From NCBI GenBank assembly GCA_947623175.1, contig CANQGK010000006.1:1-64000 (forward strand): a DNA stretch of 64,000 nt. The letters are read 5' to 3'. The notes below the pieces were generated by a model, which saw nothing but the letters and a program-made list of their open reading frames with translations, had not been told where the DNA came from and searched no databases. A program made the translations under genes and the position numbers. This document shows, piece after piece, positions 8,182-64,000 of the stretch; the first letter of the stretch is position 1; every line of letters starts with the position of its first letter. This stretch comes from an uncultured Clostridia bacterium. GTDB taxonomy: Bacteria > Bacillota > Clostridia > Oscillospirales > Acutalibacteraceae.

Positions 8182-8210
8182 AAATTCGCCTCCCGATTCG
8201 TTATGTTATG

Positions 8211-8480
8211 GCAATGCAATCATATTACAATGCGTTTTGCGTGGAACGACGTCCGCGCCCGCTTTGTCCGCACGGTCTTACCATACGACAGTATGCTCTC
8301 AACCGTGCTTCGCGCGGAACACGAACGGCGTTCTCACGCAAAATCTTCGACCCGAGTCGGAGCGGATTTTTTCGTCCGGCAAGGAAGAGGACGCGGGAAT
8401 ATTGTCGTATTTCAAGGACGATGACACAGGCGGCGGAGAAATCCGACCGCCTCGGGCGCATTGTAATCTGATTGCATTGC
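8211..8480 (-). mobile_element. Complete ~270-bp inverted-repeat element (MITE-like), copy 2
   Basis: The element is bounded by 24-bp terminal inverted repeats (8211-8234 and 8457-8480, one mismatch). It is the reverse complement of the 43665-43933 copy with very few differences. It contains no convincing gene, only short overlapping ORFs in several frames. It starts 29 bp upstream of the AraC start codon and is transcribed in that gene's leader if the promoter at 8490-8518 is used. TATG and TATA flank it, suggesting a TA-rich target. Confidence 0.85.
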
Positions 8481-8489
8481 TATACGATA

Positions 8490-34080: not shown

Positions 34081-34512
34081 ATGAATCGTTCGACCTTTGA
34101 TGTTACAATAACTCTTACCGATGGTTCTAAGCGTGTAGAGTTTAATATGGACGCCGATTGGAACGAAGACGGTCGTGTGCTTCGCATTCGCTTCGAGCAT
34201 GCCGTTAAAACGGATAATGTAAGCTGTAATATACAGTTCGGTCATATTAACCGTTCTGTTCACAGCAATAATGAGTATGAAAAGGCGCAGTACGAGGTAT
34301 GCGCTCACCGTTGGATCAGAGCGGCTCAACCGTGGCTCGGCATTTCGATACTCAGTGAATGCAAATACGGTTTTTTTGCAAAAGAAAATATTATTGAAAT
34401 GGCGGCTCTTCGCTCAAGTAATCATCCCGGCCGTCATATGGAAGCGGGTAAACACAGTTTTTCCTATGCACTCTTTGCCGATAACGGTGCAAATGATTTT
34501 GTTAATGATATA
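34081..34512 (+). pseudogene. GH38 alpha-mannosidase C-terminal remnant
   Basis: The reading frame encodes DGSKRVEFNMDADWNE, IQFGHINRSVHSNNEYEKAQ, EVCAHRWI and LSECKYGFFAKEN, then MAALRSSNHPGRH and HSFSYALFADNG. These match the C-terminal domains of GH38 alpha-mannosidases (R-DF-T-DW-E, F-GH-RP-H-N, ND-KYG, LLRSP). The catalytic N-terminal region is absent, and the 3' end runs straight into a 24-bp end of the mobile repeat at 34513. The frame after that point is repeat-derived. It is a both-ends-truncated relic. Confidence 0.8.
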
Positions 34513-34536
34513 GCAATGCAATCAGATTACAATGCG
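34513..34536 (+). mobile_element. Solitary terminal repeat of the ~270-bp element
   Basis: These 24 bp are identical to the left terminal inverted repeat of the 43665 copy, including TATA just upstream. No internal element sequence follows. It marks a deletion or excision scar at the end of the mannosidase relic and lies 113 bp upstream of the ribokinase start. Confidence 0.75.
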
Positions 34537-34581
34537 ATTCGATTTAACAGTCGCCGTGGTTTAAATTTTTTGATTTAAGGG

Positions 34582-36236: not shown

Positions 36237-36271
36237 AAAGCCCGCGTATCTCACCTCGATACGCGGGCTTT
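36237..36271 (+). terminator. Rho-independent terminator after the SIS gene
   Basis: A perfect 14-bp stem (36237-36250 with 36258-36271) with a 7-nt loop, starting with AAAG and ending CTTT. T-rich sequence follows after a few bases. It ends the ribokinase-SIS unit. Confidence 0.8.
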
Positions 36272-36273
36272 GC

Positions 36274-36367
36274 ATTGTATTTCTTACTTTTTTATTAAAA
36301 CAACATTGTATTTCTTAGTTTTCAAATTGTATTTCTTATTTATTATCCGAATGCCATGGTGTACAAT
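36274..36367 (+). promoter_or_regulatory. Activator-type promoter: three ATTGTATTTCTTA repeats plus -10
   Basis: Exact copies of ATTGTATTTCTTA start at 36274, 36305 and 36326 (steps of 31 and 21 bp, close to whole helical turns). TACAAT at 36362-36367 is the likely -10. The expected -35 position abuts the last repeat and lacks a TTGACA-like box, suggesting activator dependence. It drives the oxidoreductase operon from 36429. The same arrangement occurs at 43560. Confidence 0.75.
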
Positions 36368-36428
36368 AATCTCGCAATATACATTCTGTATTAAAACGCA
36401 AATTGTAAAAACAATGGGAGGAATCAGG

Positions 36429-37682
36429 ATGAAGGACTACGATTGCAATGTCGTTGTTGTCGGCGCGGGCCCTGCCGGTATGGCGGCGGCGATATCGGCA
36501 AAGAAAAACGGCGCTCAAAGGGTCATTATTGTTGAGCGGGAAAACCGAACCGGAGGAATACTCAAGCAATGCATCCACGCGGGATTCGGTCTTCAGTATT
36601 TCGGCGAGGAGCTGACGGGGCCCGAGTATGCAGAGAGATTTTCGAATTTGGCAAAAGAAAACGAAATCGAATTTTTGCTCGATACCACGGCGCTCGAAAT
36701 CAAGGACAAGACTTTGGTTTGCGTAAATACTCGGGGGATTATCAATATCCGCTTCGGAACGCTTGTGCTTGCTATGGGCTGCCGCGAACGCACCCGCGCC
36801 AATCTTACCATTCCGGGAAGCCGCCCCGCCGGTATTTATACAGCCGGAACGGCGCAGAAGCTTATAAACGTCTACGGCCATAAGATCGGCAAGGAAGTGG
36901 TTATCCTCGGCAGCGGCGATATCGGTATGATAATGGCAAGGCGTTTATCCTTGCAGGGCGTCAAGGTCAAGGCGGTAATCGAGATCATGCCTTATCTTGC
37001 GGGGCTTGAGCGCAATAAGGTACAATGCCTCGACGACTTTAATATCCCGCTTATGCTCTCGCATACGATCGTGGATATTACGGGAATCGACCGTGTGGAA
37101 AAGGTAACCGTAGCTCCCGTTGACGAAAACCGTAAGCCGATTATGGAAAAAGCCGAAACGATCGACTGTGACACACTGCTTTTATCCGTAGGTCTCATTC
37201 CCGAAAACGAGCTTACCCGCACGGCGGATGTTGCCCTCTCGGGAATTACCAAGGGCGCGACGGTAAATCAATATAAGCAGACCGACAAGCCATATATTTT
37301 CGCCTGCGGAAACGTTTTACACGTAAACGATCTTGTGGACCATGTGAGTCACGAGAGCGAGGACGCCGGAAAATTTGCGGCATTGTACGCGGCGGGAAAG
37401 CTCGATAAAGGAGCGGAAATCCCGGTTGAAGCGGGAGAGGGCGTCAGATATGTTTGCCCGCAAAAAATGGTCTGCGCGGACGGAAACGTAGATCTGTATT
37501 TCCGTACTTTGGTTCCCGGAAGAAATACGACGCTTACCGTTTCGGACGATACGGGAGTCCTTCTCTCCAAAAAACTTATACGCACCACGCCCGGCACCAT
37601 AGAAAAGCTCACCCTTTCGGGCGAAAAAGCCAAAAACGCAAGCGGCAGGCTTGTGGTAAGCGCAGAGCATAAGGGGGCATAA
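36429..37682 (+). CDS. FAD-dependent oxidoreductase (Glp-like trio, subunit 1)
   Basis: A 417-residue cytosolic flavoprotein. VVGAGPAGMAAA at about residue 7 binds FAD, a second VVILGSGDIGM near 157 binds a dinucleotide, and AMGCRERTR and FACGNVLHVNDLVD are family landmarks. The ATG at 36429 follows GGGAGG; the open frame extends upstream but has no other initiation signal. With the next two genes it forms the set common in anaerobic Firmicutes beside glycerol-3-phosphate genes, thought to oxidise glycerol-3-phosphate or a related polyol phosphate and pass electrons on. Its regulation by the upstream repeats ties it to glycan use. Confidence 0.85.
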   Translation: MKDYDCNVVVVGAGPAGMAAAISAKKNGAQRVIIVERENRTGGILKQCIHAGFGLQYFGEELTGPEYAERFSNLAKENEIEFLLDTTALEIKDKTLVCVNTRGIINIRFGTLVLAMGCRERTRANLTIPGSRPAGIYTAGTAQKLINVYGHKIGKEVVILGSGDIGMIMARRLSLQGVKVKAVIEIMPYLAGLERNKVQCLDDFNIPLMLSHTIVDITGIDRVEKVTVAPVDENRKPIMEKAETIDCDTLLLSVGLIPENELTRTADVALSGITKGATVNQYKQTDKPYIFACGNVLHVNDLVDHVSHESEDAGKFAALYAAGKLDKGAEIPVEAGEGVRYVCPQKMVCADGNVDLYFRTLVPGRNTTLTVSDDTGVLLSKKLIRTTPGTIEKLTLSGEKAKNASGRLVVSAEHKGA

Positions 37683-37684
37683 AT

Positions 37685-38056
37685 ATGAAAAAAACAGTAA
37701 CTTGTACGGTCTGCCCGAACGGTTGTGAAATAGAAGTCGACTACACGACAAGGGAAGACGCCGCTTTGATGGGCTACGGCTGTAAAAGAGGCATAGCTTA
37801 CGCAATCGACGAATGCTTCGAGCCGAAGCGCACCTTTACCTCGTCGGTTAAAATCACGGGATCGGACAGGCGTATGATGCCGGTCAGAACCACCGCGCCG
37901 ATACCGAAGGATTTGCTGATAAAGGCGGCGCAGGCGATAAATTCCGTCACATTAGAGGCTCCCGTAAAATGCGGACAGGTGATAGACGATGATTTTCTCG
38001 GTACAAAGGTAAAGCTTGTAACCACGCTAACGCTTGAAAGGGGAGATGCGCAATGA
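37685..38056 (+). CDS. DUF1667 small cysteine protein
   Basis: A 123-residue protein with CTVCPNGC near the N-terminus and further cysteines in GYGCKRG and VKCGQ, which could bind a metal or an iron-sulfur cluster. DUF1667 proteins regularly sit between the two flavoproteins of this trio and probably mediate electron transfer. It starts 2 bp after the upstream stop and overlaps the next gene by 4 bp (ATGA). Confidence 0.88.
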   Translation: MKKTVTCTVCPNGCEIEVDYTTREDAALMGYGCKRGIAYAIDECFEPKRTFTSSVKITGSDRRMMPVRTTAPIPKDLLIKAAQAINSVTLEAPVKCGQVIDDDFLGTKVKLVTTLTLERGDAQ

Positions 38057-39483
38057 TAAAGACCGACGTACTTATTATAGGCGCAGGCGCCGTAGGCTGT
38101 GCGCTTGCAAGAGAGCTTTCAAAATACGATATAAAGGTAACGGTATGCGATAAAAACGACGACGTCGGCGGCGACGCGTCAAAATCAAACAGCGGCTTGT
38201 TTTCGACCAGCGCCACCATGCCCGTAGGCACCCTCGAATGCCGGCTCAGGACTGTGGCGCACAGTATGATTATGAAGATATGCGAGGATCTCGAGGTGCC
38301 CGTGATCGAGTGCGGAAGTATCGCTCCCGTGCTTTATCCCGAACAAATCGAGAGCGCCAAGGGGCTTATCGAGCGCGCCTTTTTAAACGGCGTTTACGAT
38401 TATGAGCTTTTGCCGGCAAAGGATATTCTGGATATGGAGCCGACCTTAAATCCCGAGATTTTGGGCGGTATTTACAGTCCGCGCGACAGACAGACAAACC
38501 AATTTATATTCGTATCCGCCATGGCGGAAAATGCCGCGGAAAACGGCGTTGAGTTTCTGCTTGACTGCAAAGTGACGGGTATGGACGTTTCGGACGGAAA
38601 AATCCACAGAGTGCATACCGAAAATGGCGATATCGAAGCCGGATGGGTAATCAACGCCGCGGGGCTTTACTGCGATGAAATAGCCAAAATGGCGGACGAA
38701 TGCGACTTTAAGGTGAACCCGAGAAAGGGCGAGTTTTTCGTATTTTCAAACGATACTCCCGTTAAGGTATCGCACATCATATCCTCCGTTCCGAGCCCGA
38801 AAACGCGCGGCGTGCTCGTGATCCCGACGGTGGATGGCAATATGCTGATAGGACCTACGGCGGACGACGTCGAGGACAAGACCGACCGCAAGACTACCTC
38901 CGAGGGGCTCGAAAGCATTAAAACGCAGGCGCTTAATATGGTGCCGGGACTGCATTTTGAAGATACGATAACGCAGTTCGTAGGCGTCCGCCCTGCCAGA
39001 ACCCCCGAAGGCTACGATATCCGTTTTTCGGAAAAAGTAAAGGGTTATATCGGCATTTCGGGCGTGCGCTCGACAGGACTTACCGCAAGCGTAGCGATCG
39101 CCTTTTATATCGTTCACGGAATGAAGGAGGCGGGCGTGACGCTCGAACGCAAGGAGGGCTGGAAGCGCACGAGAAAGGGAATCGTAAGCTTTGCGGATAA
39201 AACCGCCGAGGAAAAGGACACGCTGATAGCCGCCGATCCGCTTTACGGCAAGATAATTTGCCGCTGTGAGCAGGTTACCGAGAGCGAAATATTGCAGGCT
39301 ATTCACAGGCCTGTGGGCGCAAGGACGCTGGACGCCGTAAAACGCCGTGTTCGCGCCGGCATGGGGCGTTGTCAGGGCGGCTTTTGCAGTCCGCTTGTGA
39401 TAGAAATTCTCGCAAGAGAATTGGGTATTCCCGAAACCGAAGTAAGAAAACGCGGCGAAAAAGCCTTTATGCTGGATAAATGA
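38053..39483 (+). CDS. GlpA-like FAD oxidoreductase with C-terminal BFD-like [2Fe-2S] domain
   Basis: A 476-residue DAO-family flavoprotein. IIGAGAVGCALARELS at residue 6 is the FAD-binding fold. GVRPARTPEGYDIR and ISGVRSTGLTAS are typical of anaerobic glycerol-3-phosphate dehydrogenase-like enzymes. The C-terminus carries CRCEQVTESE and GMGRCQGGFC, a four-cysteine BFD-like [2Fe-2S] site. Overlapping ATGA junctions on both sides show translational coupling. True glycerol-3-phosphate activity is not proven; neither glycerol kinase nor glycerol facilitator is nearby, so another 2-hydroxy substrate is possible. Confidence 0.85.
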   Translation: MIKTDVLIIGAGAVGCALARELSKYDIKVTVCDKNDDVGGDASKSNSGLFSTSATMPVGTLECRLRTVAHSMIMKICEDLEVPVIECGSIAPVLYPEQIESAKGLIERAFLNGVYDYELLPAKDILDMEPTLNPEILGGIYSPRDRQTNQFIFVSAMAENAAENGVEFLLDCKVTGMDVSDGKIHRVHTENGDIEAGWVINAAGLYCDEIAKMADECDFKVNPRKGEFFVFSNDTPVKVSHIISSVPSPKTRGVLVIPTVDGNMLIGPTADDVEDKTDRKTTSEGLESIKTQALNMVPGLHFEDTITQFVGVRPARTPEGYDIRFSEKVKGYIGISGVRSTGLTASVAIAFYIVHGMKEAGVTLERKEGWKRTRKGIVSFADKTAEEKDTLIAADPLYGKIICRCEQVTESEILQAIHRPVGARTLDAVKRRVRAGMGRCQGGFCSPLVIEILARELGIPETEVRKRGEKAFMLDK

Positions 39484-40481
39484 TTATGAAAAAATTAAAC
39501 CTCGACGAAATAATACCGCTCGTTCACGGCGCCTCCGAAGTATGCGAAAAGGACGGGAAAATATCGCTTTTTCGCTTTACGAAGGAACAGCGCGAGCTTT
39601 ACAAAACCGTTTCGCGGGATTATTACCGAAAATGCTTTGCGACGGCGGGTATTACTTTGGAGTTTGATACCGACAGCGAAAATCTGACGCTTTCGGTGTC
39701 GGTAAACCCGGGCAGCTCGCGGAGGTTTTTTACCCACAGCGTTTTTGTAAACGGAAAACGGACGGGCGAGTTATCCGGCGATATAGGGGAAAAAGAAAAC
39801 GTTTTTTATACCGAGGCCTTTACTCTCGGCGGCGGCATCAAGCGGATCAAAATTCAATTTCCATGGTCTGTCTCATCGGATATTTTATCGCTCGAAATCG
39901 ACGATAACGCGAAAATCACCCCGGTTGTCAAAAAACGCAATATACTTATGTTCGGCGACTCGATAACCCAGGGGTATGACGCCGTGTATCCCGAAAACGC
40001 CTATGCGGTAAAGCTTGCGGATGCCGCGGGCGCCGAAATACGCGATAAAGCGATTGCCGGCGAGCGTTTTTTTGCAGAGCTTGCAAAAAATAAGGAAAAT
40101 TTCCGACCTGATATTATCACGGTCGCCTACGGTACGAACGATTGGTGCCACAGCGCAAAGGAAGAGTTCGAAACGCAATGCCGAAGCTTTTTTTACAATT
40201 TGCGCAATTCCTATCCCGAGGCGGAAATTATCGCCTTTACGCCGGTTTGGCGAGCGGATATTGAGGATAAAAAGCCGATTTCGCAGCCCTTCGGGTTTAT
40301 TTCGGAGTATATAAAAAAGGTTGCGGAGAATATACCGGATATCAAGGTTTTTGACGGTATCGATTTCATTCCGCATGATTTGCGCTGTTACAGCCCGGAC
40401 GGTCTGCATCCGAACGATGCGGGCTTCGAGCATTACGGTAATGCGGTTTTAAATATCATTAAAAATATCCCGCGGTACTGA
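39480..40481 (+). CDS. SGNH/GDSL-family hydrolase
   Basis: A 333-residue protein with no evident signal peptide. MFGDSITQGYD near residue 158 holds the catalytic serine, YGTNDW is block III with the Asn, and SPDGLHPNDAG near 306 supplies Asp and His. The first 150 residues form a beta-sandwich like that of carbohydrate esterases. It probably deacetylates sugars or glycans. The ATG overlaps the upstream TGA (ATGA), so it belongs to the oxidoreductase operon; ATG 39486 is an alternative. Confidence 0.85.
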   Translation: MIMKKLNLDEIIPLVHGASEVCEKDGKISLFRFTKEQRELYKTVSRDYYRKCFATAGITLEFDTDSENLTLSVSVNPGSSRRFFTHSVFVNGKRTGELSGDIGEKENVFYTEAFTLGGGIKRIKIQFPWSVSSDILSLEIDDNAKITPVVKKRNILMFGDSITQGYDAVYPENAYAVKLADAAGAEIRDKAIAGERFFAELAKNKENFRPDIITVAYGTNDWCHSAKEEFETQCRSFFYNLRNSYPEAEIIAFTPVWRADIEDKKPISQPFGFISEYIKKVAENIPDIKVFDGIDFIPHDLRCYSPDGLHPNDAGFEHYGNAVLNIIKNIPRY

Positions 40482-40490
40482 AATTATCTG

Positions 40491-40519
40491 TTGAAATTTG
40501 CGCCAAACTCTTGTATAAT
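40491..40519 (+). promoter_or_regulatory. Sigma-A promoter of the GH2 beta-galactosidase gene
   Basis: TTGAAA (40491-40496), 17 bp, TATAAT (40514-40519), just after the SGNH stop codon and 30 bp before the GH2 start. Confidence 0.8.
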
Positions 40520-40537
40520 GTAACCGAAATAAAATAA

Positions 40538-43378
<2,841 letters not shown>

Positions 43379-43394
43379 TATTTCGCAATTGTTT

Positions 43395-43427
43395 GCCGCT
43401 TTTGTGTTTTGCAAAGGCGGCTTTTTT
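43395..43427 (+). terminator. Rho-independent terminator after the GH2 gene
   Basis: A 10-bp stem (43395-43404 with 43412-43421, one weak pair) and a 7-nt loop, followed by six Ts (43422-43427). Confidence 0.85.
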
Positions 43428-43559
43428 ATTTGGAAAATTCGGGAAATTTAATTAAATATATAAAATTTTTTTCAAATTCAAAATCAAATAAATTTGAAAA
43501 ACCGCAATTTTATCGGCTTAAAGTACAGTTTTACCGTGAAATCGGGTTTGTTTGCGAAA

Positions 43560-43622
43560 ATTGTATTTCTTAGTTTTTTAATTGTATTTCTTATTTAAAG
43601 CTTATATGTAACAGTGTATAAT
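43560..43622 (+). promoter_or_regulatory. Activator-type promoter: two ATTGTATTTCTTA repeats plus -10
   Basis: Exact repeats start at 43560 and 43581 (21 bp apart), and TATAAT is at 43617-43622. The last repeat lies 36 bp before the -10, exactly as at 36326/36362. Transcription would start near 43629 and run through the mobile repeat into the GH16 gene. Apart from the adjacent terminator, the 43428-43559 sequence is AT-rich with nothing recognisable. Confidence 0.78.
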
Positions 43623-43664
43623 AATTGTACACCGAAACACGGATTTTTTTGTGAATTGTATATA

Positions 43665-43933
43665 GCAATGCAATCAGATTACAATGCGCCCGAGGCGGAC
43701 GGATTTCTCCGCCGCCTGTGTCATCGTCCTTGAAATACGACAGTATTCCCGCGTCCTCTTCCTTGCCGGACGAAAAAATCCGCTCCGACTCGGGTCGAAG
43801 ATTTTGCGTGAGAACGCCGTTCGTGTTCCGCGCGAAGCACGGTTGAGAGCATACTGTCGTATGGTAAGACCGTGCGACAAAGCGGGCGCGGACGTCGTTC
43901 CACGCAAAACGCATTGTAATATGATTGCATTGC
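43665..43933 (+). mobile_element. Complete ~269-bp inverted-repeat element (MITE-like), copy 3
   Basis: Near-perfect 24-bp terminal inverted repeats (43665-43688 and 43910-43933) with TATA on both flanks. The interior can form strong hairpins: 43775-43805 (AAAATC/GATTTT outer and CGAC/GTCG inner pairs) and 43837-43875 (GCACGGT/ACCGTGC and CATAC/GTATG). No transposase is encoded. It lies between a promoter and the GH16 gene, 120 bp before that start codon. A decayed further terminal repeat may follow at about 43937-43950. Confidence 0.87.
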
Positions 43934-44052
43934 TATAGCAGTGCAATCCGTTTGAATTGCCGTAGCATAAGACGGATGAAAGATTTAAGGACGGATTATA
44001 AAATTTGCCGACGGGGATCATGCTGCCGCGTCGGATCGAAAAGGAGGATACT

Positions 44053-45534
44053 ATGCACCCGGTTAAAAGAATTATCGCGGTACTGTTGGCTTTGATAATT
44101 TGCATCTCGGCGGCAGGCTGCGGAGAAAAAGCTTCGGGCACCAAGAAAAAGAAAAAAATCGTTATCATCAAGAAAAATCCTTCTTCCCGGGTTTCCGAAC
44201 CTGCGGAGGATACGGACGCCGACAACGGCTTTAGCGACGATTATTATTTTGACGAGGAATATATTTCGGAGCGCAAGCTTGCCTTAAAGGATACCGTCTC
44301 CGTCGAGAAAACGGTTCCGGAATATACCGTAAGAGCCGTAAATTTCAACTTGACGGGCGACTATACGGTTATTTACCCCGATGGCAATTTCCAGCTTATG
44401 CAGGCGGCAAAAAAGCTGGTCGAATATTTCTCGAAAAACGGCGTAAAGCTCGGCATCGCGTCCGACACCTCCGCCAAAAAGGACAAGGAAATTTTGGTAG
44501 GAGATACGAACAGGAAAAAATCGACGCTTTCCGACAAAAATTACGCGGTTTCGCTGTCGGGCAAAAAGCTCTTTTTTGAAAGCGGCAACTTTAACGGCGC
44601 GGTAAAGGCGGTTTCGTGGTTTACTTCTTTAAAATACCAAAAGGGAAAAATAAATACCCTTACCGGAAGCTATGATTTTTCGGCGAAGGTCAAAAGGCCC
44701 GACGGGCTTTACGAATTTGTTTGGGGCGATGAGTTCGACGGAAGCGTTCTTGACAATACCAAGTGGGAGCTTACCTCGCATATGAGCGCCGGAAGCTCGT
44801 TTAAGCTCTCTCGCGATCCCAAGGCGATAAATCTGTCCGACGGATTGTTAAAGCTGTCCGCCGTACGCTGCTTTGATCCCGAAAACAACCAGATACAGGC
44901 GATGGTACCCTATACCGTCGAGGGAAAACGGCATATGAATTTCCGGTACGGATATCTCGAAATGCGGGCAAGAATACCCTTCGGCGCGGGAGCCTGGCCC
45001 TCGCTTTGGCTGTCGGGAGCCTGCAGCGCAAATTCGGGCGCCGTGGTGAGTACGATATTTGATAACGGCGATATAATCCCCTCAAACTTCTCCGCAGAGT
45101 TCGATATAGTCGAATACACCTCGCTTCAACCCAATTTACATAAGTGGTTTTACAACGACATGCCCGGAATCGAGGGTATAATCGACCGACATTCTTCGCT
45201 CGGAGCGGTCGAAAAACCGGTAAAGAGCGAATTGCAGAACGATCCCGCTCAATCCTTTGTTTATCAGACCATAGCCTTCGATTGGACGCCGGAGGATTTG
45301 ACGATATACATAAACGGCGAAAAGTTTTACAGCTACAATTGGAAAAAGAGCGTACAGCTTGACGGACTCAACGATATGACGGATTTTCTCAATCCGGTAT
45401 TTATACGGCTTAACAACCATCTTATTCCGGAAAATATCCCGAGCGATTATTCGACCTTGCCGTGTGAGATGTTCGTCGATTACATAAGATTATACCAGAA
45501 AACAGACACAGGCGGAATTTGGTTCGCCGAGTAA
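44053..45534 (+). CDS. Secreted GH16 endo-beta-glucanase-like lipoprotein
   Basis: A 493-residue lipoprotein, with lipobox SAAGC after a hydrophobic signal and then a Lys-rich stretch. A middle domain (about 80-215) precedes the GH16 jelly roll (about 220-490). The active-site motif AEFDIVEY gives E349, D351 and E354, the bulged ExDxxE form typical of laminarinase-type GH16. WGDEFDG, FRYGYLEMRARIPFG and WPSLWLSG are further hallmarks. It should cleave beta-1,3- or mixed-linkage glucan or a related galactan at the cell surface. AAGGAGG supports ATG 44053. First gene of the second super-operon. Confidence 0.9.
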   Translation: MHPVKRIIAVLLALIICISAAGCGEKASGTKKKKKIVIIKKNPSSRVSEPAEDTDADNGFSDDYYFDEEYISERKLALKDTVSVEKTVPEYTVRAVNFNLTGDYTVIYPDGNFQLMQAAKKLVEYFSKNGVKLGIASDTSAKKDKEILVGDTNRKKSTLSDKNYAVSLSGKKLFFESGNFNGAVKAVSWFTSLKYQKGKINTLTGSYDFSAKVKRPDGLYEFVWGDEFDGSVLDNTKWELTSHMSAGSSFKLSRDPKAINLSDGLLKLSAVRCFDPENNQIQAMVPYTVEGKRHMNFRYGYLEMRARIPFGAGAWPSLWLSGACSANSGAVVSTIFDNGDIIPSNFSAEFDIVEYTSLQPNLHKWFYNDMPGIEGIIDRHSSLGAVEKPVKSELQNDPAQSFVYQTIAFDWTPEDLTIYINGEKFYSYNWKKSVQLDGLNDMTDFLNPVFIRLNNHLIPENIPSDYSTLPCEMFVDYIRLYQKTDTGGIWFAE

Positions 45535-45554
45535 TAAATAAAAGGAGAGAAATT

Positions 45555-46982
45555 ATGAAAAACATATTTATTAAAACCGGAGCATTTTTGATCGCATTAC
45601 TGCTTGTCGCCGCGTCGGCGGGATGCAAGAGCGGCAGAGACACCTCCGATTCGTCGGATGACGTTGAGATTGTTTATCAATACGAGGATGAGGAGTCGGC
45701 TGCCGACAGCACGGTAAGCGCCGATACCGGTTCGAGCGGCAGTACGTCGGATAAAACGACGAGCTCCAAAAAACCGTCCTCAAATAAAAATACCCTCGTC
45801 AACGACAACGTAAATCCGAACGATTATTCGGGCGGGTCGGTTACCTACGCCACATGGCGCAATCCCGCGCTTTACGAGGACGGACCGGTGGTAAAGGCTT
45901 TTGAAAATAAATACAATATCAAGGTAAACGTTGACCTTATGAACGAGGAGAGCTATACCAATACCGTTTTGGGCAGAATAGCCTCCGGCAAAGCGCCCGA
46001 CGTTTATTTTTCGACCTACACATTTCCCTATTGTCTTGACGCGCTTCAGCCTATCGACGCGGCAAAGCTCAATCTTAAAGAGTCTATCTGGGATAAACCG
46101 CTTATCAATATTTCGACCGTAAACGGCAAAACCTATCTCGTCGACACCGTGGGAAGCATCTGGAAAGACGAGGATATGATAGTTTACAATAAAAAGATAT
46201 TCCGCGACAACGGCTGGACGACTCCCGAGGAATACTACAAGGCGGGCAAATGGGATTACGACGCTATGGAAAAGTGCATGAAGCAGGTAGCCTCACTCGG
46301 CACCGAATATAAGGGCGGCGCCATTCACCTTGAGGGCCTTATTCACGCGGCGGGCGGCGCGGTTATAGGTATGAAGAACGGTAAGTTCTACAACGGTACC
46401 ACAAGCGCCGTTACGCAGGACATCATGCGCTGGGCGTCTACGGGACTTAAGGAAGGCTGGATCAGCACCACCTCCATATATACGGCGCTTAATCAATTCC
46501 CGTCGGGCAAGGTGGGTATCGCGGTACTGCATTCCTTCGCGCTTAAAAAGACGGGCTATTTGAGAAGCATGAAGGCGAGCGACATAGGCTTTACTTATCT
46601 GCCGTCCTATAAAGGAAAAGCATATACGCCTACCTCCTTTGTACGCGGCTGGGGTATTTGCAGAGGCGCCAAAAATCCGGTAGCCGCCGGTATATTCCTG
46701 CGGTATTATCTTGACGTCAACAACTACGACACAGGCTCCGCCTTTATTTCCAAGGACGCCGAGAACTTCTTCTTTAAGCTTACGGCAACAAATACTAAAA
46801 ACAAAAACTTCTACTTCTGCTACGGTTCGGGCGTGAACGGCGTTACCGGTAAAGAATCCGCCGTCGGCGACTATATTTCCAAGCCTGCCGCCGCCGATCC
46901 GACGCAGGTAGTTACCGAAATTTCCAAATATCAAAACGCGCTTAACGCGGATATAGCGAAATTAAATCAAAAAATCAAATAA
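45555..46982 (+). CDS. Sugar ABC transporter substrate-binding lipoprotein
   Basis: A 475-residue solute-binding protein with a lipobox (ASAGC) and a Ser/Thr/Asp-rich linker (about 30-80). The family 1 binding domain has VTYATWRNPALYEDG, KAPDVYFSTYTFP and NGKTYLVDTVGS. AAAGGAGAG precedes ATG 45555. It is only distantly similar to the 8830 lipoprotein and has no adjacent own permease; the nearest pair is at 59300-61142. It probably captures products of the upstream GH16 enzyme. Confidence 0.9.
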   Translation: MKNIFIKTGAFLIALLLVAASAGCKSGRDTSDSSDDVEIVYQYEDEESAADSTVSADTGSSGSTSDKTTSSKKPSSNKNTLVNDNVNPNDYSGGSVTYATWRNPALYEDGPVVKAFENKYNIKVNVDLMNEESYTNTVLGRIASGKAPDVYFSTYTFPYCLDALQPIDAAKLNLKESIWDKPLINISTVNGKTYLVDTVGSIWKDEDMIVYNKKIFRDNGWTTPEEYYKAGKWDYDAMEKCMKQVASLGTEYKGGAIHLEGLIHAAGGAVIGMKNGKFYNGTTSAVTQDIMRWASTGLKEGWISTTSIYTALNQFPSGKVGIAVLHSFALKKTGYLRSMKASDIGFTYLPSYKGKAYTPTSFVRGWGICRGAKNPVAAGIFLRYYLDVNNYDTGSAFISKDAENFFFKLTATNTKNKNFYFCYGSGVNGVTGKESAVGDYISKPAAADPTQVVTEISKYQNALNADIAKLNQKIK

Positions 46983-51805: not shown

Positions 51806-51854
51806 TTTTATTTGGGTGATTAAAAAATTTTTTATTAAAAAGGAGAGTAAATTT

Positions 51855-54800
51855 ATGAAAAAAGTCTGTTTGGCAAAACGTATTTTAGCATATACCCTGA
51901 CATTTTCGCTTTTCCTTTCTCAAATGATTTTGACTCCTGCGCTTTCCGCTTCGGCGGAAGAGCCCGCCGTCTGGGACGGCACCAAAGCCGAGAGCTTTGC
52001 GGGCGGAAGCGGTACCGCCTTAAGCCCCTACTTAATAGAAAACGGCGGCCAGCTTTATAAAATGGTCGCGGATTACAGCGCTGTGTCAGGCGATGACAGC
52101 GAGCTTGCAACACCTACATATTTCAAAATAATTAATGATATTTATTTGAATAATATTACCGATGCTGATATGGAGAATCCTACAACAGCCTCTTTAGAGG
52201 CAAAGGGTTTTAAACCATGGCATACTCATTATTCTCAATCAACAGGATTTTGCGGCGTAGTTGACGGCGGCGGACATACCGTATACGGTCTTTATTCTAA
52301 CGTCGGCACCTATTCGGGTCTGATACCCAATGCAGTAGATACTGTTGAAATATATAATTTGAATTTAAAAAATTCATATGTATATGCTACCGGTGCTGCC
52401 GGAGGTATTGTCGGCGGAGCTTTCGGCTCGGTTACGACTGTTTCGGTAAAGTGTTGTACGGTTGATAAAATCTTGGTTGACGGCGGTGCGAGTGTTCGTA
52501 TTGCCGGAATTATCGGCGGATTAGCGGGCAGCGTTAAAAAAGCGGCGATATCGAATTGTGCTGTAACAAGAGCAACCTTGAAAACCTCACATAAAAGTTA
52601 TCCGAATATTCAATCCGCTTTGTTGGGTTACACCGGTGAGCAGATAAAAGGTCATACTGTAACCAACTGCTATACAGACGGCTCGGCACATCCCGTAACC
52701 GATACAACAGATGCTGCCCATTTTAAAAAGTTTACCGATTACATAACCTATACCAACGTATATACAGCGGCCTCAAACACTAATAGCGCGGCAGGAGTCA
52801 CACAGCTTACAGAAGATCAAATGAAAGGCGAAGCGGCAAAAGAGTATATGCCCGGTCTTAATTTTGATTTAATTTGGCAGACAGCCGAAAACGACTATCC
52901 CGTAATTCGTGAAAACCCGATATATGTCTGGGACGGTACGAAATCATCCGTATTTTCCGGCGGCGACGGCAGTAAGGGAAGCCCTTATCTTATTTCTACT
53001 CCCGAACAGTTGGCATACGTCGTGAGCACCGATCTTACCGACGGCTTGTATTTCAAGCTTATTTCGGATATTCGAATAAATGATACCTCCAAGGAAAATT
53101 GGAAGGATACCGCCCGAAATTGGGTGTGGGCGGACGTTCGCTTCGTCGGCACCTTTGACGGTAACGGGCACACTATAGACGGCCTTTATTACAAGGGCAA
53201 TCAGTTTAAGCGCGGGCTTTTTTCCTACATAGGCGATACCGTAATAAAAAATCTTATATTTACCAACGCTTCGATAAATACCACCTATTCTGGCGACGGC
53301 GGCTCCGGTATACTCGTCGGTCAGCTTTCGGCTCCGGCAACCATGCAAAACATTTACGTTGACGAAAGCTGTGAGCTTAACGTGCCGAACGGCAACGGTG
53401 TGGCGGCGATAGCCTCCTGGGGCGGTTTTAAAGCGACGATAGACAACTGCGCCGTTTTGACCGACAAGATCGTCGGTAAAAGCTACGTGGGCGCCGTAAT
53501 AGGAACCAATTGGTCTAACCAAAGCAGTATAACCAACTGCTTTACTTCCTCAAGCCTGCCGATACGCGGCTACGGCTCGATAATAGGCTCTGCGAATAAC
53601 TACGCGCTGGTTGCCGACGACATAGGCACCGTCGTTTTGGACAGCGCGGAGCACATGAAGGGCGAAAATGCAAAGCTTTATATGCCCGGGCTTGATTTTG
53701 AGGACGTATGGGAGATAACCGACGGCTATCCGATATTATCCTCTAAAATAGCGGAGATTTGGGACGGCACCAAAGCCGAAAGCTTTGCGGGCGGCGAAGG
53801 TACCGAGGCGGAGCCTTACTTAATAGAAAACGGCGGCCAGCTTTATAAAATGGTCGCGGATTACAGCAATACGCCTGTACTCGACAAGCCGGAGAGCCAT
53901 ACCTACTTTAAGCTGACAAAGGATATCAATCTCGGCTATAATCAATGGTATACCGTAGAGTCTACGGCTTACCCCAATAACTCGAATTATACCACGGGCT
54001 TCGGCGGCATAATCTACGGCGACGGGTATACGGTAAAAGGTCTTTACAACGGCAAAGCGGCGGGAGTCGCGGGACTTATTCCGGTAACTGCGCAGGGCGC
54101 AGAAATTCACGATCTGCATCTCAAGAACGGGTATTTACCGAAGGTCGATTGGAACTCCTATGCCGCAGGCGCGCTTGTCGGGCTTGCCGCGGGTAACGCC
54201 AATTCTACGCCGATAACCGTAGAGGGCTGTTCCGTAAGGAATTTCACCGCAGGAAGCCGCGACGCTTCCTCCGCCTTTGTCGGATTTTCATATTCGCAGT
54301 CGGTAAAGATAGAAAACTGCTATTGCGCCGATTCCGATATAAGCCATACCGGCAGTGCCGGCAGAGAAAACAGCGGCGCGTTTATAGCGTATACGAACGG
54401 CAGTGCTTACGGCAACAGCATAACTATCGAAAACAGCTATTGCGCCGGCATATCGCCTACCGTATCTTATGGCGATGGTTTTGAAGAAATCACCTCCTAT
54501 AAAAACGTATATACCGACTTCGCGGATTATGAGAATACCGTAGAAGGACTTACAAAGCTTGACGTCGCTCAAATGCAGGGCGCCGCCGCAAAGGACAATT
54601 TGCAGGGCTTTAATTTCAACCAGATATGGCAATGCGGCGAAGAGGGCGAATATCCCTATCTTCGCACCTTTGAGGACAGAGCGGAGTATTGGGACGGTAC
54701 CGCAGCGGAATCGTTCGCCGGCGGTACGGGCAGCAAGGAGAGCCCCTTTGAGATTTCAAATGCGCAGCAGCTTTATCTGCTGGCTTCCTCCGACACCGAG

Positions 54801-56422: not shown

Positions 56423-56445
56423 TAATGGCGAAGGGATTGAATATT

Positions 56446-59286
56446 GTGCTCAAAAAAATGAAAAAGAGCTTAAGCGTCATACTGTGCGTTTTAACCTTGA
56501 CGGCAGCGCCCGTTTACGCCGCGAAATCCGGCGGCGCGTCGGGTACGCCCGAGCCTTCGGCGAAGTCCGCCGTAAGCTCCGCCGCCGACAGCTATGAGCA
56601 TTATACGGAAAACAGCGGCTTAAATTACGCGGTTAAGGCTTTGCCGCTGTCGCTCGAAAAATTCACTCCCGAAAATACGAACGCCTCCTTTGCCGACGGT
56701 GTGATCGACTGGGCGGACGGCAAGGGCAGTATCGCTTTTACCGCCGATATAACCGCTCCCGCCCTTTATTCCCTAAAAATCGTATGGAAGCCCAAAGCCG
56801 CGGGTATAGATCCCGATATTTCGGTTTATATAGACGGCTCGGCGCCCTTTTCGGAAGCAAATCAAATTTCCCTCAAACGCGAATGGAAGAATATTTCGCA
56901 AACGCCGCGCGTAGACTCGAGCGGCAACGAATACGCGCAGGAGCAGGTCGAAACGGGCGAATATATCACCTCGGTTTTGCAGGATTACGTCGGAGTTACC
57001 GTAAAACCGTATACCTTTAAGCTTACAAAGGGCAGGCATACTCTGACGATAGGCGAGCCCGACGTTCCGATATATATTAAGGAAATAACCTTGATCCCGC
57101 CCGAAAAAACGAAAGCGTATTCCGAAATTTCGAAGGAATATACCCTTTTGGAAAACGACGCGAAAACCGTCACGATACAGGCGGAAAACGCGGATATTAA
57201 AAATTCCAAGGCTTTGATCCCAAAATGCAATAACAGCGACGCCGGAATGACGCCGTCGGATCCTTATACGAGTAAAATCAACTATATCGGCGGCTCCTCC
57301 TGGCAAAGCCCGGGAAGCAGTATGACCTGGCGGTTTAATATCGAAACGGACGGGTATTATTATTTAGGTCTTCGCTACAAGCAGTCGGAGCTTGTAAGCG
57401 GAGTAAGCTACCGAAAGCTCAGAATCGACGGCGAAATACCCTTTGCCGAGGCGGAAAGCATAGGCTTTCCCTACGGTACAAGATGGAAATATTTAACCTT
57501 GGAAGACGGTAATTCGCCCTATTATATATGGCTCGAAAAGGGCGAGCACACCCTTTCGTTAGAGGTCACCGCAGGCGCCGAAAGCGACTTTTTCAAAAGA
57601 CTTTCCGCCGTGGTCTCAAGACTCGGAGACGAGTATATCAAAATAGTTATGATAACCGGCGAGTCGCCCGACGTTAACCGCGATTACGAGCTGTTTAACC
57701 AAATCGAGGGCTTTAACGATACCTTGACCGACTGCCGAGAGGCGCTTGACGGTATAGCCGCCGATATGAAAAAAACCTCGGGCAGCAGGGGAAACCAGAG
57801 CATTGCGGCGATAGAAAATATGTCGCGCGTATTAAAGCAGATGCTTAAAAGTCCGTACGTTGCCCAACAGTACGTTAACGACTATTACAACAACTACACC
57901 GCGGTAAGCTCATGGCTTTACGATATGACCAATATGCCGCTGGCGCTCGACGAAATACAGATCATCCCCTACGGGAAAAAGCCGGAAAACAAAAACGCGA
58001 ATATTTTTAAAGCTATAGGCTACGGCGCTTTAAGGCTTTTGGTATCCTTTACGCAGGACTATAATTTCACCGATAAAACCGACTCGGACAAATCGATCAC
58101 CATTTGGATAAATTGGGGTCAGGACCAGGCGATGGTGCTCAATTCTCTGATAAGAGACTCCTTTACGCCGAAGACGGGCATAAACGTCCGCATCGATGTG
58201 GTAAACGCCTCGCTGATAAACGGTATACTGTCGGGAAATTTCCCCGATCTGTCACTGCAAATGGCGAGAACCGAGCCCGTAAATCTGGGAATCAGAGGCG
58301 CGCTTTACGATTTAAACAATTTTGAGGATTGCGGTGAGGTTTTAAAGCGGTTCGGAGATACCGCCGCCGATCCTTACGGCTACAACGGCGCTTTGTACGC
58401 GCTTCCCGATACGCAGAGCTTTATGCTCATGTATTACCGTAAGGATATTATGGAAAATCTGGGGCTCGGCGTGCCGAAAAATTGGAGCGAATTTAAGCAC
58501 GCGGCGATGGTAATACAGCGAAACAATATGAACGTCTACGTGCCCTATACCCAGATTACCGCCTCTACCACCGTAAATACCGGTATAGGCAGTCTTAATC
58601 TGCTGCCGACTTTGATTGCGCAAAACGGACTTTCGCTTTATAACGAGCAAAGAAACGCCACCGCGCTTAATACAAAGGAAGCTATAGACGTTTTTGAGTT
58701 TTGGACGGATCTCTATACCGAATACGGCTATTTAAAGGAAGCGGAGTTTTATAACCGCTTCAGGGTAGGCGTGGTGCCATTGGGAATAGCGCCGCTTGCG
58801 ACTTATATGAATTTATATTCCGCCGCTCCCGAAATAGCCGGCAGATGGTCGGTGGCTTCGGTACCGGCAAGCGAGGGAGGAAGCGCCGCCGTGGCGGGAG
58901 CCGGCACCGGCTGCGGAATTATAAACCTTTCCGACAAAAAGGCGGAGGCTTGGGAGTTTCTCAAATGGTGGACCTCTGCCGACACTCAGACGAGATACAA
59001 CAACAACGTCGAGTCCATACTCGGGATGATAGGCAGAACCACGACGGCAAACGTCGAGGCGTTCGGAAGACTCGCCTGGGACGGCGAGCATCTCGCGGTC
59101 ATGGAAGAACAGCGCCGTCTTGTCAAAGAGGTGCCCGAGGTTCCGGGAAGCTACTATCTGTCGCGCGCCGTGGATCAGGCGTTTTGGGCGGTAGTCAACG
59201 GCGAAAGCATACCCAAAGACGCGGTAGCCAAGTGGAGCAAAATCGCCGACGACGAGATCGCGAGAAAAATTAAAGAATATTCATAA
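56446..59286 (+). CDS. Giant solute-binding protein with N-terminal carbohydrate-binding domains (paralogue)
   Basis: About 946 residues from GTG 56446, which has AAGGGA 9 bp upstream; ATG 56425 is inside the hairpin region and less likely. The signal peptide ends at PVYAAK. CBM-like segments (about 60-400; YIGGSSW, SYRKLRIDGEIPF) and a helical linker are followed by a family 1 binding domain (ITIWINWG, TPKTGINV, PKNWSEFKHAAM, AWEFLKWWTS). Domain order and many motifs match the 17206 protein, but sequence divergence suggests a different ligand. Its two permeases follow directly. Confidence 0.85.
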   Translation: MLKKMKKSLSVILCVLTLTAAPVYAAKSGGASGTPEPSAKSAVSSAADSYEHYTENSGLNYAVKALPLSLEKFTPENTNASFADGVIDWADGKGSIAFTADITAPALYSLKIVWKPKAAGIDPDISVYIDGSAPFSEANQISLKREWKNISQTPRVDSSGNEYAQEQVETGEYITSVLQDYVGVTVKPYTFKLTKGRHTLTIGEPDVPIYIKEITLIPPEKTKAYSEISKEYTLLENDAKTVTIQAENADIKNSKALIPKCNNSDAGMTPSDPYTSKINYIGGSSWQSPGSSMTWRFNIETDGYYYLGLRYKQSELVSGVSYRKLRIDGEIPFAEAESIGFPYGTRWKYLTLEDGNSPYYIWLEKGEHTLSLEVTAGAESDFFKRLSAVVSRLGDEYIKIVMITGESPDVNRDYELFNQIEGFNDTLTDCREALDGIAADMKKTSGSRGNQSIAAIENMSRVLKQMLKSPYVAQQYVNDYYNNYTAVSSWLYDMTNMPLALDEIQIIPYGKKPENKNANIFKAIGYGALRLLVSFTQDYNFTDKTDSDKSITIWINWGQDQAMVLNSLIRDSFTPKTGINVRIDVVNASLINGILSGNFPDLSLQMARTEPVNLGIRGALYDLNNFEDCGEVLKRFGDTAADPYGYNGALYALPDTQSFMLMYYRKDIMENLGLGVPKNWSEFKHAAMVIQRNNMNVYVPYTQITASTTVNTGIGSLNLLPTLIAQNGLSLYNEQRNATALNTKEAIDVFEFWTDLYTEYGYLKEAEFYNRFRVGVVPLGIAPLATYMNLYSAAPEIAGRWSVASVPASEGGSAAVAGAGTGCGIINLSDKKAEAWEFLKWWTSADTQTRYNNNVESILGMIGRTTTANVEAFGRLAWDGEHLAVMEEQRRLVKEVPEVPGSYYLSRAVDQAFWAVVNGESIPKDAVAKWSKIADDEIARKIKEYS

Positions 59287-59299
59287 AGGAGAGAATAAA

Positions 59300-60232
59300 G
59301 TGCTTGCCAATAAATACAGTCGCCCGAAAAGCCGGCGCAAAAACGCGCCAGAAGGCTCTTTCAGGGAACAATTACCCATGTTCGTAATGATTTCTCCCTT
59401 TGTTTTGTTTTTCTTGATTTTTACCGTCATACCTATTATATCTTCAATTTGTTTAAGCTTTACCTCGTATGATATGATATCCTCGCCGAGCTTTGTCGGG
59501 CTTGACAATTACCGGCGGCTTATCACAAGCGACGCCGTTTTCCCCGTAACGGTTAAAAATACCGTGGTATTTGCGGTGGTGGCGGGCCCGCTCGGATTTT
59601 TGCTCGCCTTTGTATTGGCGTGGCTCGTAAACGAGTTCACCGCGAAAAAAAGGGCGCTTCTTTCCTTTATGTTTTACGCCCCCGCGCTTGTGGGAAACAC
59701 CTATTTTATCTGGCAGGTAGCCTTCAGCGGAGACAGCTACGGCTATATAAACAGCCTTTTGTTATCCTTAGGGATTATCACGGAGCCTATAGTATGGCTC
59801 AAAAACGCAACCTATCTTATGCCCATTATCATAGTCGTGCAATTATGGCAGAGCATGGGCGTGTCCTTTCTTGCCAATATTTCGGGACTGCAAAACGTCA
59901 GCCGCGATCTGTACGAGGCGGGCGCCATAGACGGTATCCGAAACCGCTGGCAGGAATTGAGGTATATAACCCTGCCTTCGATGTCAAATATGCTGCTTTT
60001 CAGCGCGGTAATGCAAATCCAAAGCAGTTTTTCGGTAAGCCTTATCGCTATCACTCTGGCGGGTTATCCGAGCAAATCAAACGCCGTAGATACCATAGTA
60101 TCGCTTATGCAGGATATGGCAACCGTGCGTTATGAGCTCGGATACGCTTCGGCAATCGCCGTCGTGCTGTTTATTATGATGGTGACGACAAGGCTGATCG
60201 TCGGAAAAGCCCTCTCGACCGTGCAGAAATGA
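59300..60232 (+). CDS. Sugar ABC transporter permease, MalF/UgpA type (cassette 2)
   Basis: A 310-residue permease with six helices. The SGDSYGYINSLLLSL loop and the EAA loop LYEAGAIDGIRNRWQELRY match the 20015 permease closely. The GTG start has AAAGGAGAG overlapping the upstream stop. It pairs with the next gene, one base away. Confidence 0.93.
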   Translation: MLANKYSRPKSRRKNAPEGSFREQLPMFVMISPFVLFFLIFTVIPIISSICLSFTSYDMISSPSFVGLDNYRRLITSDAVFPVTVKNTVVFAVVAGPLGFLLAFVLAWLVNEFTAKKRALLSFMFYAPALVGNTYFIWQVAFSGDSYGYINSLLLSLGIITEPIVWLKNATYLMPIIIVVQLWQSMGVSFLANISGLQNVSRDLYEAGAIDGIRNRWQELRYITLPSMSNMLLFSAVMQIQSSFSVSLIAITLAGYPSKSNAVDTIVSLMQDMATVRYELGYASAIAVVLFIMMVTTRLIVGKALSTVQK

Positions 60233-60233
60233 G

Positions 60234-61142
60234 GTGTTTACGATAAAGAACAAAGCTTTGTTAAAAAGACGTCTGTCGGCAGAGCGAAAACCTGCCTACC
60301 GGCGTTACACCCGTTCGAGGTTCGGCGATTTTCTCAACGCCTTCTTGCTTATAGTGGCGGGACTTTTTACCATGCTGCCGCTCATATACGCGGTCTGCAC
60401 CTCCTTTAAGCCGTTGGATGAGCTGCTTATATTTCCGCCGCGCTTTTTTGTAAGACGCCCCACGCTCGGAAATTATCTGATACTTCCGGACCTTATGTCC
60501 TCTCTTAAGGTGCCGCTTTCGCGCTATATTTTCAACAGCCTTTTTATAAGCGCGGTTTCCACGTTTTTTTATATACTTATCGCTACGATGGCGGCGTTTG
60601 TGCTCTCAAAAGCCAAGTTTAAGGGCAGAAATCTGCTCTTTTGGGTAGTACAGTTTTCCCTTATGTTCAACGCCTATACCTTAGGCATTCCGAGATACCT
60701 GATTTTTTCGAAAATGCATATTATAGATACCTATTGGGTCTCCATTTTGCCGCATATAGCGTCAACCCTCGGCGTATTTCTGGCGAAGCAGTACATAGAG
60801 GGGTATATTCCGAACGCCCTGCTCGAGGCGGCGAAAATCGACGGCGCGAGCCATTACAGGGTATTTTGGTCTATAGTAATGCCGGTTATCAAGCCCGCAT
60901 GGCTTACGCTTATGCTTTTTGCCTTCAGGGATATTTGGGCGGAGGTGCCGAACGGTACGATTTTCAGCGAACAGCTGAAAACTTTGCCGCAAATAGTCAC
61001 TCAGATAACGGCGGGCGGCACGGCGAGAGCGGGAAGCTCGATGGCGGTCACGGTAATTATGATGATACCGCCGATTATCGTCTTTTTAATTTCACAAAGC
61101 AACGTTGTCGAAGCGATGAGCAGCGCGGGTATAAAGGAGTAG
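60234..61142 (+). CDS. Sugar ABC transporter permease, MalG/UgpE type (cassette 2)
   Basis: A 302-residue permease. RRYTRSRFGDF, TSFKPLDELL, the EAA loop LLEAAKIDGAS and the C-terminal MSSAGIKE parallel the 20931 protein. GTG 60234 immediately follows the upstream TGA; its ribosome binding site is weak, so coupled translation or a start a few codons later is likely. The stop codon is TAG, directly after the conserved end. Confidence 0.92.
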   Translation: MFTIKNKALLKRRLSAERKPAYRRYTRSRFGDFLNAFLLIVAGLFTMLPLIYAVCTSFKPLDELLIFPPRFFVRRPTLGNYLILPDLMSSLKVPLSRYIFNSLFISAVSTFFYILIATMAAFVLSKAKFKGRNLLFWVVQFSLMFNAYTLGIPRYLIFSKMHIIDTYWVSILPHIASTLGVFLAKQYIEGYIPNALLEAAKIDGASHYRVFWSIVMPVIKPAWLTLMLFAFRDIWAEVPNGTIFSEQLKTLPQIVTQITAGGTARAGSSMAVTVIMMIPPIIVFLISQSNVVEAMSSAGIKE

Positions 61143-63250: not shown

Positions 63251-63267
63251 GGAGGGAAGACGGTTTT

Positions 63268-64000
63268 ATGAAAAGATTTTTTAGCTTGATTTGCTGTATG
63301 ACGGTATTGTTATCGCTTACGGCTTGCAGCAGTACCGATTTCGGTTCGTCGCCCTACAGGGAAGCGGAAGACTCGGAAATACCGTCCGATACCCTTATTG
63401 CGGAAAATTCGCTCTACAGATTAGAGCTTACGGACTCGAATATGGGCTTTGTTCTGACCGAAAAAGCCACGGGAAAGCAATGGAGCAGTACGCCCGCGGA
63501 CGAGTCGGGCGCCGAGGTAGACGAGCTTGGTATGCCCATAAAAAAGCATCCGCGGGTTGAGTCGGTACTGTCGGTAGAATGCAAAAACTTCATAAGCGAC
63601 GAGACGAATACCTACAATTGCTACACCGACGCTTTGCAGGCGGGAAAGGTGGTCTGTAAAGCTGCCGATAACGGCATAACCGTCGACTACTATTTTTCCG
63701 AAGCACAGGTTATGATACCGCTCGAGTGCACGCTTACCGATATGGGGGTAAAGCTCTCCGTAAACCCCGAAAAAATTCTCGAAAACGACAACAAGGTAAT
63801 AAGCATTTCGATCGCGCCCTTTTTCTGCGGGGTCAAAAACGATACCGAAAATTCTTATCTGTTCGTACCCTCGGGCTCGGGAGCCATAGTCGGTACCGCC
63901 GCAAAATCTCAGCAGGGAGACTCATATTCGGCTCAAATTTACGGTTACGATCCCGCCATAGACGAGGTGGCGTCGATTTCGAACAAGGAGCCCGTGCGGC
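63268..64000 (+). CDS. DUF5696-like lipoprotein, truncated by the window end
   Basis: An open reading frame runs from ATG 63268, behind GGAGGG, without a stop to the end of the window, giving at least 244 codons. The lipobox is LTAC. SLYRLELTDSNMGFVLTE-type opening, GKQWSSTP and YLFVPSGSGAIVG align with the 23957 lipoprotein (YLFAPSGSGALMY), and the position after the Yip1 gene is the same. The rest of the protein, and possibly another permease pair, lies beyond. Confidence 0.85.
   Translation, partial: MKRFFSLICCMTVLLSLTACSSTDFGSSPYREAEDSEIPSDTLIAENSLYRLELTDSNMGFVLTEKATGKQWSSTPADESGAEVDELGMPIKKHPRVESVLSVECKNFISDETNTYNCYTDALQAGKVVCKAADNGITVDYYFSEAQVMIPLECTLTDMGVKLSVNPEKILENDNKVISISIAPFFCGVKNDTENSYLFVPSGSGAIVGTAAKSQQGDSYSAQIYGYDPAIDEVASISNKEPVR

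Follow-up and report, generated by a model that had tools for sequence, protein, structure and literature searches.

Two neighbouring operons of an uncultured Clostridia bacterium carry the same pair of 13-bp direct repeats at the same distance from their -10 boxes. The reading best supported by the sequence is that the repeats are half-sites of an activator which would lie on one helix face and co-regulate both operons. We put at roughly 70% the probability that each pair is occupied by an AraC/XylS-type activator as one dimer, with AraC267 the likeliest protein, and that both operons are switched on together. Such a mechanism is already known; the motif is new. The window referred to below is the whole stretch of DNA that was analysed, 64,000 nucleotides long.

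Paired repeats at two promoters

The box, ATTGTATTTCTTA (13 bp), occurs as an exact match at 36274, 36305, 36326, 43560 and 43581, always on the + strand. These five boxes of the genome under study (G000) are identical to each other; in its relatives the distal box differs in sequence from the proximal box. Two pairs are formed (36305/36326 and 43560/43581), both with a start-to-start period of 21 bp, and at both promoters the start of the proximal box is 36 bp from the start of the -10 hexamer, TACAAT in one case and TATAAT in the other (Table 1). The earlier note had described the exact repeats, their spacing and their distance to these hexamers, and it was correct to the base; the extra copy which it placed 31 bp further up, at 36274, was also found as an exact match. 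This extra box lies directly 3' of the hairpin trailing the upstream gene, a structure which is a possible terminator.

The first pair stands in front of a run of genes that begins with an FAD/NAD oxidoreductase gene (FAD operon), and the second in front of a run that begins with a GH16 gene (GH16 operon). Judged from the orientation and spacing of the genes, each run would be read as one transcript. The start codon of the GH16 gene (ATG at 44053) and a lipoprotein-type signal in its product were recognised by eye, and the protein has a weak carrageenase-like match below the cut-off. Past the DUF5696 gene, the contig continues with two permease genes, a GH36 melibiase gene and then an AraC-type gene on the opposite strand. 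The idea that the DUF5696 gene is broken, which its short frame had raised, was dropped because the gene continues beyond the window and can be aligned from end to end. A full-text literature search for DUF5696 found nothing.

Table 1. Features at and behind the two promoters (window positions unless a contig is named)
Feature	Position	Strand	Remark
G+C-rich hairpin, short T run only	36237..36271	+	read by eye; after SIS-domain gene, above FAD promoter
Extra single box	36274..36286	+	exact match; 31 bp (~three helical turns) above distal box 36305
Distal box, FAD-operon promoter	36305..36317	+	exact match
Proximal box, FAD-operon promoter	36326..36338	+	exact match
Weak -35 position TTTATT (3/6)	36339..36344	+	17-bp spacer to -10, FAD operon
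-10 TACAAT	36362..36367	+	FAD-operon promoter
FAD/NAD oxidoreductase (Pyr_redox_2)	36429..37682	+	FAD operon gene 1; likely start ATG 36429
DUF1667 protein	37685..38056	+	domain match
DAO + BFD [2Fe-2S] oxidoreductase, GlpA-like	38053..39483	+	NCBIfam matches all below cut-offs
SGNH/GDSL hydrolase	39480..40481	+	domain match
GH2 beta-galactosidase (LacZ type)	40550..43378	+	domain match
Terminator-like hairpin and T tail	43395..43421	+	scan; after LacZ-type gene
Distal box, GH16-operon promoter	43560..43572	+	exact match; conserved in alignment
Proximal box, GH16-operon promoter	43581..43593	+	exact match; conserved in alignment
Weak -35 position TTTAAA (4/6)	43594..43599	+	17-bp spacer; first two bases within conserved block
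-10 TATAAT	43617..43622	+	GH16-operon promoter
MITE-like repeat	43661..43937	.	between boxed promoter and GH16 gene
GH16 protein	44053..45534	+	GH16 operon gene 1; Pfam score exactly at cut-off
Solute-binding protein	45519..46982	+	domain match
Large solute-binding protein	56425..59286	+	conserved in cluster
ABC permease	59300..60232	+	domain match; cluster comparison
ABC permease	60234..61142	+	domain match; cluster comparison
DUF5696 gene	63265..64000, on past window to about contig position 65493	+	
AraC267, AraC-type protein, 267 aa	contig C6:69753-70556	-	just beyond window, same conserved cluster

We scanned the whole assembly of this genome (2,383,090 bases in 54 contigs, 94.35% complete) for the pair as 24 fixed bases with up to 3 mismatches, and used the reversed pattern as control. 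The pair was found in two places only, both in the window, and the control gave 0. With up to one mismatch, the single box gave 12 matches in the assembly, namely the 5 exact ones and 7 one-mismatch boxes elsewhere, as compared to 5 for the reversed control. The 7 were dropped as real sites, their number being close to that of the control. In the 20 kb past the window, which include the promoter of AraC267 itself, there were 10 single-box matches with up to 3 mismatches vs. 9.2 expected, a background count which we reckon among the points against the AraC267 reading. As an exact motif, ATTGTATTTCTTA was not found in a full-text literature search.

The pair in related genomes

GH16 orthologues with 65-67% identity were found in 4 of the 69 other genomes of the genus (G008, G046, G067 and G047, the last with two copies), and all five of their promoters carry the box pair. 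Counting the two window promoters, the 21-bp period is found in 7 of 7, and in each of them a TATAAT or TACAAT begins exactly 36 bp downstream of where the proximal box starts. The number of independent promoters in the relatives may be four, because pair and spacer of one G047 copy, on contig C18, are the same as those of G008 and may be contamination; the G047 genome is listed with 3% contamination. We aligned five GH16 promoters (window, G047 C5, G008, G046 and G067). Invariant columns make up 27 of the 38 of the pair with its edges and all 6 of the -10; outside these elements there are 8 among the 98 columns upstream, 2 among the 21 that separate pair and -10, and 10 among the 38 that follow. 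The last two bases of the invariant block, TT, are also the first two of the -35 position. With its flanks diverging, the GH16-operon site represents a phylogenetic footprint.

A degenerate pattern of the pair, with up to 3 mismatches, matched in 5 of 70 genus genomes (reversed control 0), and its only matches were the relatives' five GH16 promoters and the two window sites. Because the pattern was drawn from these same promoters, the hits are expected and it is the 65 misses that carry the information. In a collection of 84,980 species, made up of contigs of at least 3,000 bases and possibly lacking records near the window's own genome, the exact pattern including the -10 matched five stretches, all of them the relatives' GH16 promoters (four species). 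A motif private to its own species had been considered, as the own-species pair was present in 1 of 70 genus genomes; this was dropped when the degenerate pattern found the relatives. The earlier note had held that a pair occurring widely without -10 boxes would speak against its reading, and the genome scan gives only the two window pairs. For this purpose the own genome and the genus were searched for the pair alone, and the collection-wide pattern demanded the -10.

A candidate activator from the same cluster

AraC267 has the domains of the AraC/XylS family. These are a C-terminal double HTH, which spans about 100 residues in the family (PF12833, 1.7e-17; PF00165, 3.3e-15), and an N-terminal AraC ligand-binding/dimerisation domain, which most members possess (PF02311, 1.7e-13). 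Its two HTH regions are nearly invariant across five full-length orthologues. Its relatives in G046, G008, G004, G047 and G067 are 69-78% identical, and the next best by score are at 38-43%. An AraC267 sequence is present in 5 of 5 box-bearing genomes, and the box in 5 of 6 genomes with AraC267. The sixth is G004, where AraC267 is present and no box was found; this genome is 86% complete and has no close GH16 orthologue. Because box and regulator share descent in one small clade, their co-occurrence is close to a single event. AraC267 is full length in G000, G008, G046 and G047; in the G067 assembly it breaks off ahead of the HTH. There, the locus (L080:4400-6000) has abrupt joints from permease to melibiase and from AraC267 to other sequence, followed by the FAD gene, and the cut may reflect decay or an assembly mosaic. 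In G008, G046 and G047, the AraC267 gene comes after the cluster's GH36 gene, in the same orientation. In the own genome it is inverted relative to these three and convergent with the GH36 gene.

The regulator survey covered the AraC-type and LytTR families. The own genome has 36 AraC-type HTH_18 matches. Comparison of the own AraC-type proteins with G047 and G067 gave 38 rows with 36 distinct sequences, which stand for 34 genes, since two of the rows are truncated copies, at the ends of loci, of neighbouring entries; two of the 36 HTH_18 matches (L203 and L205) gave no comparison row. Among the 34 genes, AraC267 alone has a reciprocal best match of at least 50% in both genomes, 76% in G047 and 69% in G067 over a 196-aa fragment. 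For another AraC-type gene, at C22:25780, a match of this level (58%) exists in G067 alone.

These comparisons bear on the idea that the boxes are AraC-type sites bound by another of the genome's own AraC-type proteins, for example that encoded at 7321-8181. With 36 HTH_18 matches in the genome there are many candidates, a regulator need not adjoin its sites, and G067 has the box although AraC267 is cut in its assembly. The 7321-8181 protein and a protein of G067 are each other's best match, if at only 28%. The former has matches of only 24% and 28% in G047 and G067, however, and no gene other than that of AraC267 reaches 50% in both genomes, so we regard a different AraC-type binder as unlikely.

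LytTR response regulators bind direct repeats near the -35 with a spacing similar to that of the boxes here. The own assembly (94.35% complete) has 0 matches to the LytTR domain (PF04397), for which 5 of 14 control genomes were positive. The LytTR reading of the boxes was rejected on this ground. Of the "AraC- or LytTR-like" regulator proposed in the earlier note, the AraC half is in keeping with the 36 HTH_18 matches, one of them in the cluster, and the LytTR half falls away. OmpR/PhoB-kind response regulators, too, have direct-repeat sites close to the -35, and the pair could be a site of one of these or of another non-AraC direct-repeat activator. The period here is 21 with no half-period repeat by eye, and the cluster genes scanned (all but 51816-56381) include no recognisable response regulator or sensor, which makes this reading quite improbable.

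Promoter geometry and a proposed model of activation

The earlier note had seen no -35 box at either promoter, which is nearly right; the element is weak and not absent (TTTATT, 3/6; TTTAAA, 4/6). The -35 hexamers have 3/6 or 4/6 matches in all 7 promoters. In a promoter consensus scan, the GH16 promoter had 10/12 consensus matches overall, and because of this its activity may be partly independent of an activator.

This arrangement of boxes and -35 is in keeping with class II activation by an AraC-type dimer. In an excerpt of PMC4514859, the sites of XylS at Pm are TGCA-N6-GGNTA-N6-TGCA-N6-GGNTA direct repeats with a 21-bp period, and one and the same structure is given for XylS, MekR and AraC. 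An excerpt of PMC4225500 states that XylS sites overlap the -35 by two bases. By these excerpts, the boxes here are like XylS/Pm in the 21-bp spacing and in the two-base overlap of the proximal site with the -35. They are unlike it in that the box sequence is unrelated, the phylum is different, and regulator and inducer are putative. With AraC at araBAD I1-I2, too, the box sequence is unrelated; an extra upstream box is present here at 36274, but any looping would be speculative. New AraC-family rhamnose regulators of Bacillales, Bacteroides and Enterococcus have 21-bp direct repeats according to an excerpt of PMC3870299; judged from it, they are other regulators with another motif and pathway.

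Under the activator reading, AraC267 would bind an inducer, presumably a galactose-containing sugar. We guess at this inducer from the presence of GH2 and GH36 enzymes together with the carrageenase-like match of the GH16 protein, which is weak and below the cut-off. Each subunit of the dimer would hold one half-site, so that two adjacent major grooves are occupied, and the proximal subunit would abut the weak -35 and contact RNA polymerase (class II activation). The FAD oxidoreductase-DUF1667-GlpA-like-SGNH-LacZ and the GH16-ABC transporters-DUF5696-GH36 operons would then switch on together.

The same position of the proximal box may be read in the opposite sense. The box borders directly on the -35 position, so that a protein bound to it might keep polymerase out, and a promoter with 10/12 matches such as that of the GH16 operon might suit a repressor operator. 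Nevertheless, a -35 of only 3/6 or 4/6 in 7 of 7 promoters is as expected for activator-dependent promoters, and the geometry equals that of XylS/Pm as excerpted; we therefore give an operator for a repressor only a slight chance.

A MITE-like repeat lies in the GH16 leader, in the path of any transcript that starts at the boxed promoter. The element is ~270 bp long and has near-identical ends of ~27 bp in inverted order, with TA at the ends. Including 43661-43937, the own genome has at least 23 near-full-length copies with 96-100% identity and more in pieces; this count is a lower bound, with 40 of 89 candidates scored in a search that covered the own genome. Copies also occur at 8204-8484 and at contig ends. 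One copy lies between the AraC-type gene at 7321-8181 and a solute-binding gene at 8830. A palindromic piece at 34497-34539, made up solely of the repeat's ends, is located where a short GH38 C-terminal frame finishes, immediately upstream of a PfkB gene; it is perhaps a trace of excision or recombination. No MITE was seen in the leaders of the relatives' five GH16 promoters, and the G008, G046 and G047 C18 leaders share the own-genome sequence up to the insertion point. The stretch from the MITE to the GH16 gene holds a single promoter-like match of the scan on the + strand (43976-44004, 9/12). The genome is rich in this MITE and one copy adjoins one of the two sites, so the boxes themselves might be taken for a chance or mobile repeat that regulates nothing. 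This is hardly credible, since they are not part of the MITE, no further pair was found in the genome, and four other species have kept the pair with the same geometry.

A probable change of control of the FAD operon

In G008, G046, G047, G067 and G003, the FAD gene is divergent from another AraC-type gene, of ~290 aa. The divergent AraC proteins of the relatives are 62-91% identical to that of G008; their best match is 30% in G000 and, over part, 30% in G004. A scan built from six sites found no box pair above threshold in the FAD promoters of the five relatives. In alignment, the FAD promoters of four of them (G067's left out) share another conserved block. It covers ~60 bp between the FAD gene and the divergent AraC gene and is likely the divergent regulator's own operator. 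The best matches in G000 to two pieces of this block are 20/34 and 19/32; of 500 shuffles, 99 and 29, respectively, do as well. These values do not stand out clearly from shuffled sequence, though the G000 FAD promoter may hold a faint remnant of the block. In G004, the FAD genes directly follow AraC267 and one more gene on one strand.

Within G000, the FAD and GH16 pairs are equal in 32 of 34 bases. The promoter flanks agree in 13 of 60 bases upstream and 10 of 37 downstream, which is no more than in shuffles. A modest excess is seen from the pair to the -10 (11/23) and over the -10 and after it (11/20), each reached by fewer than 3% of 1000 shuffles. This excess would fit a copied promoter core or a common constraint.

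Taken from these comparisons, the FAD operon probably came under the boxes recently, in replacement of the dedicated divergent AraC gene that is kept in relatives. The order of events, which we infer from these relatives and not from a tree, would be that the dedicated regulator was lost and a GH16-type array was then gained. G004 may have reached the same coupling differently, by placement of the operon behind the activator's own gene. Whether we are looking at a rewiring in progress, in which the FAD operon lost its own AraC protein and gained the boxes of the neighbour's activator, G004 took another route and the genus holds three solutions, is in our judgement an evenly balanced question.

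Implications

A repeat spotted by eye has led to the prediction, for an uncultivated gut lineage, of a two-promoter regulon whose candidate regulator can be named. It would join two neighbouring sugar-use operons under a familiar type of control, with the second site apparently newly acquired in the own species. If the rewiring is true, the FAD operon would stand under a dedicated regulator in some members of the genus, under that of its neighbour by site gain in another, and behind the regulator's own gene in a third case. These genomes would then be a natural series, within one genus, for testing how bacterial regulons change hands.
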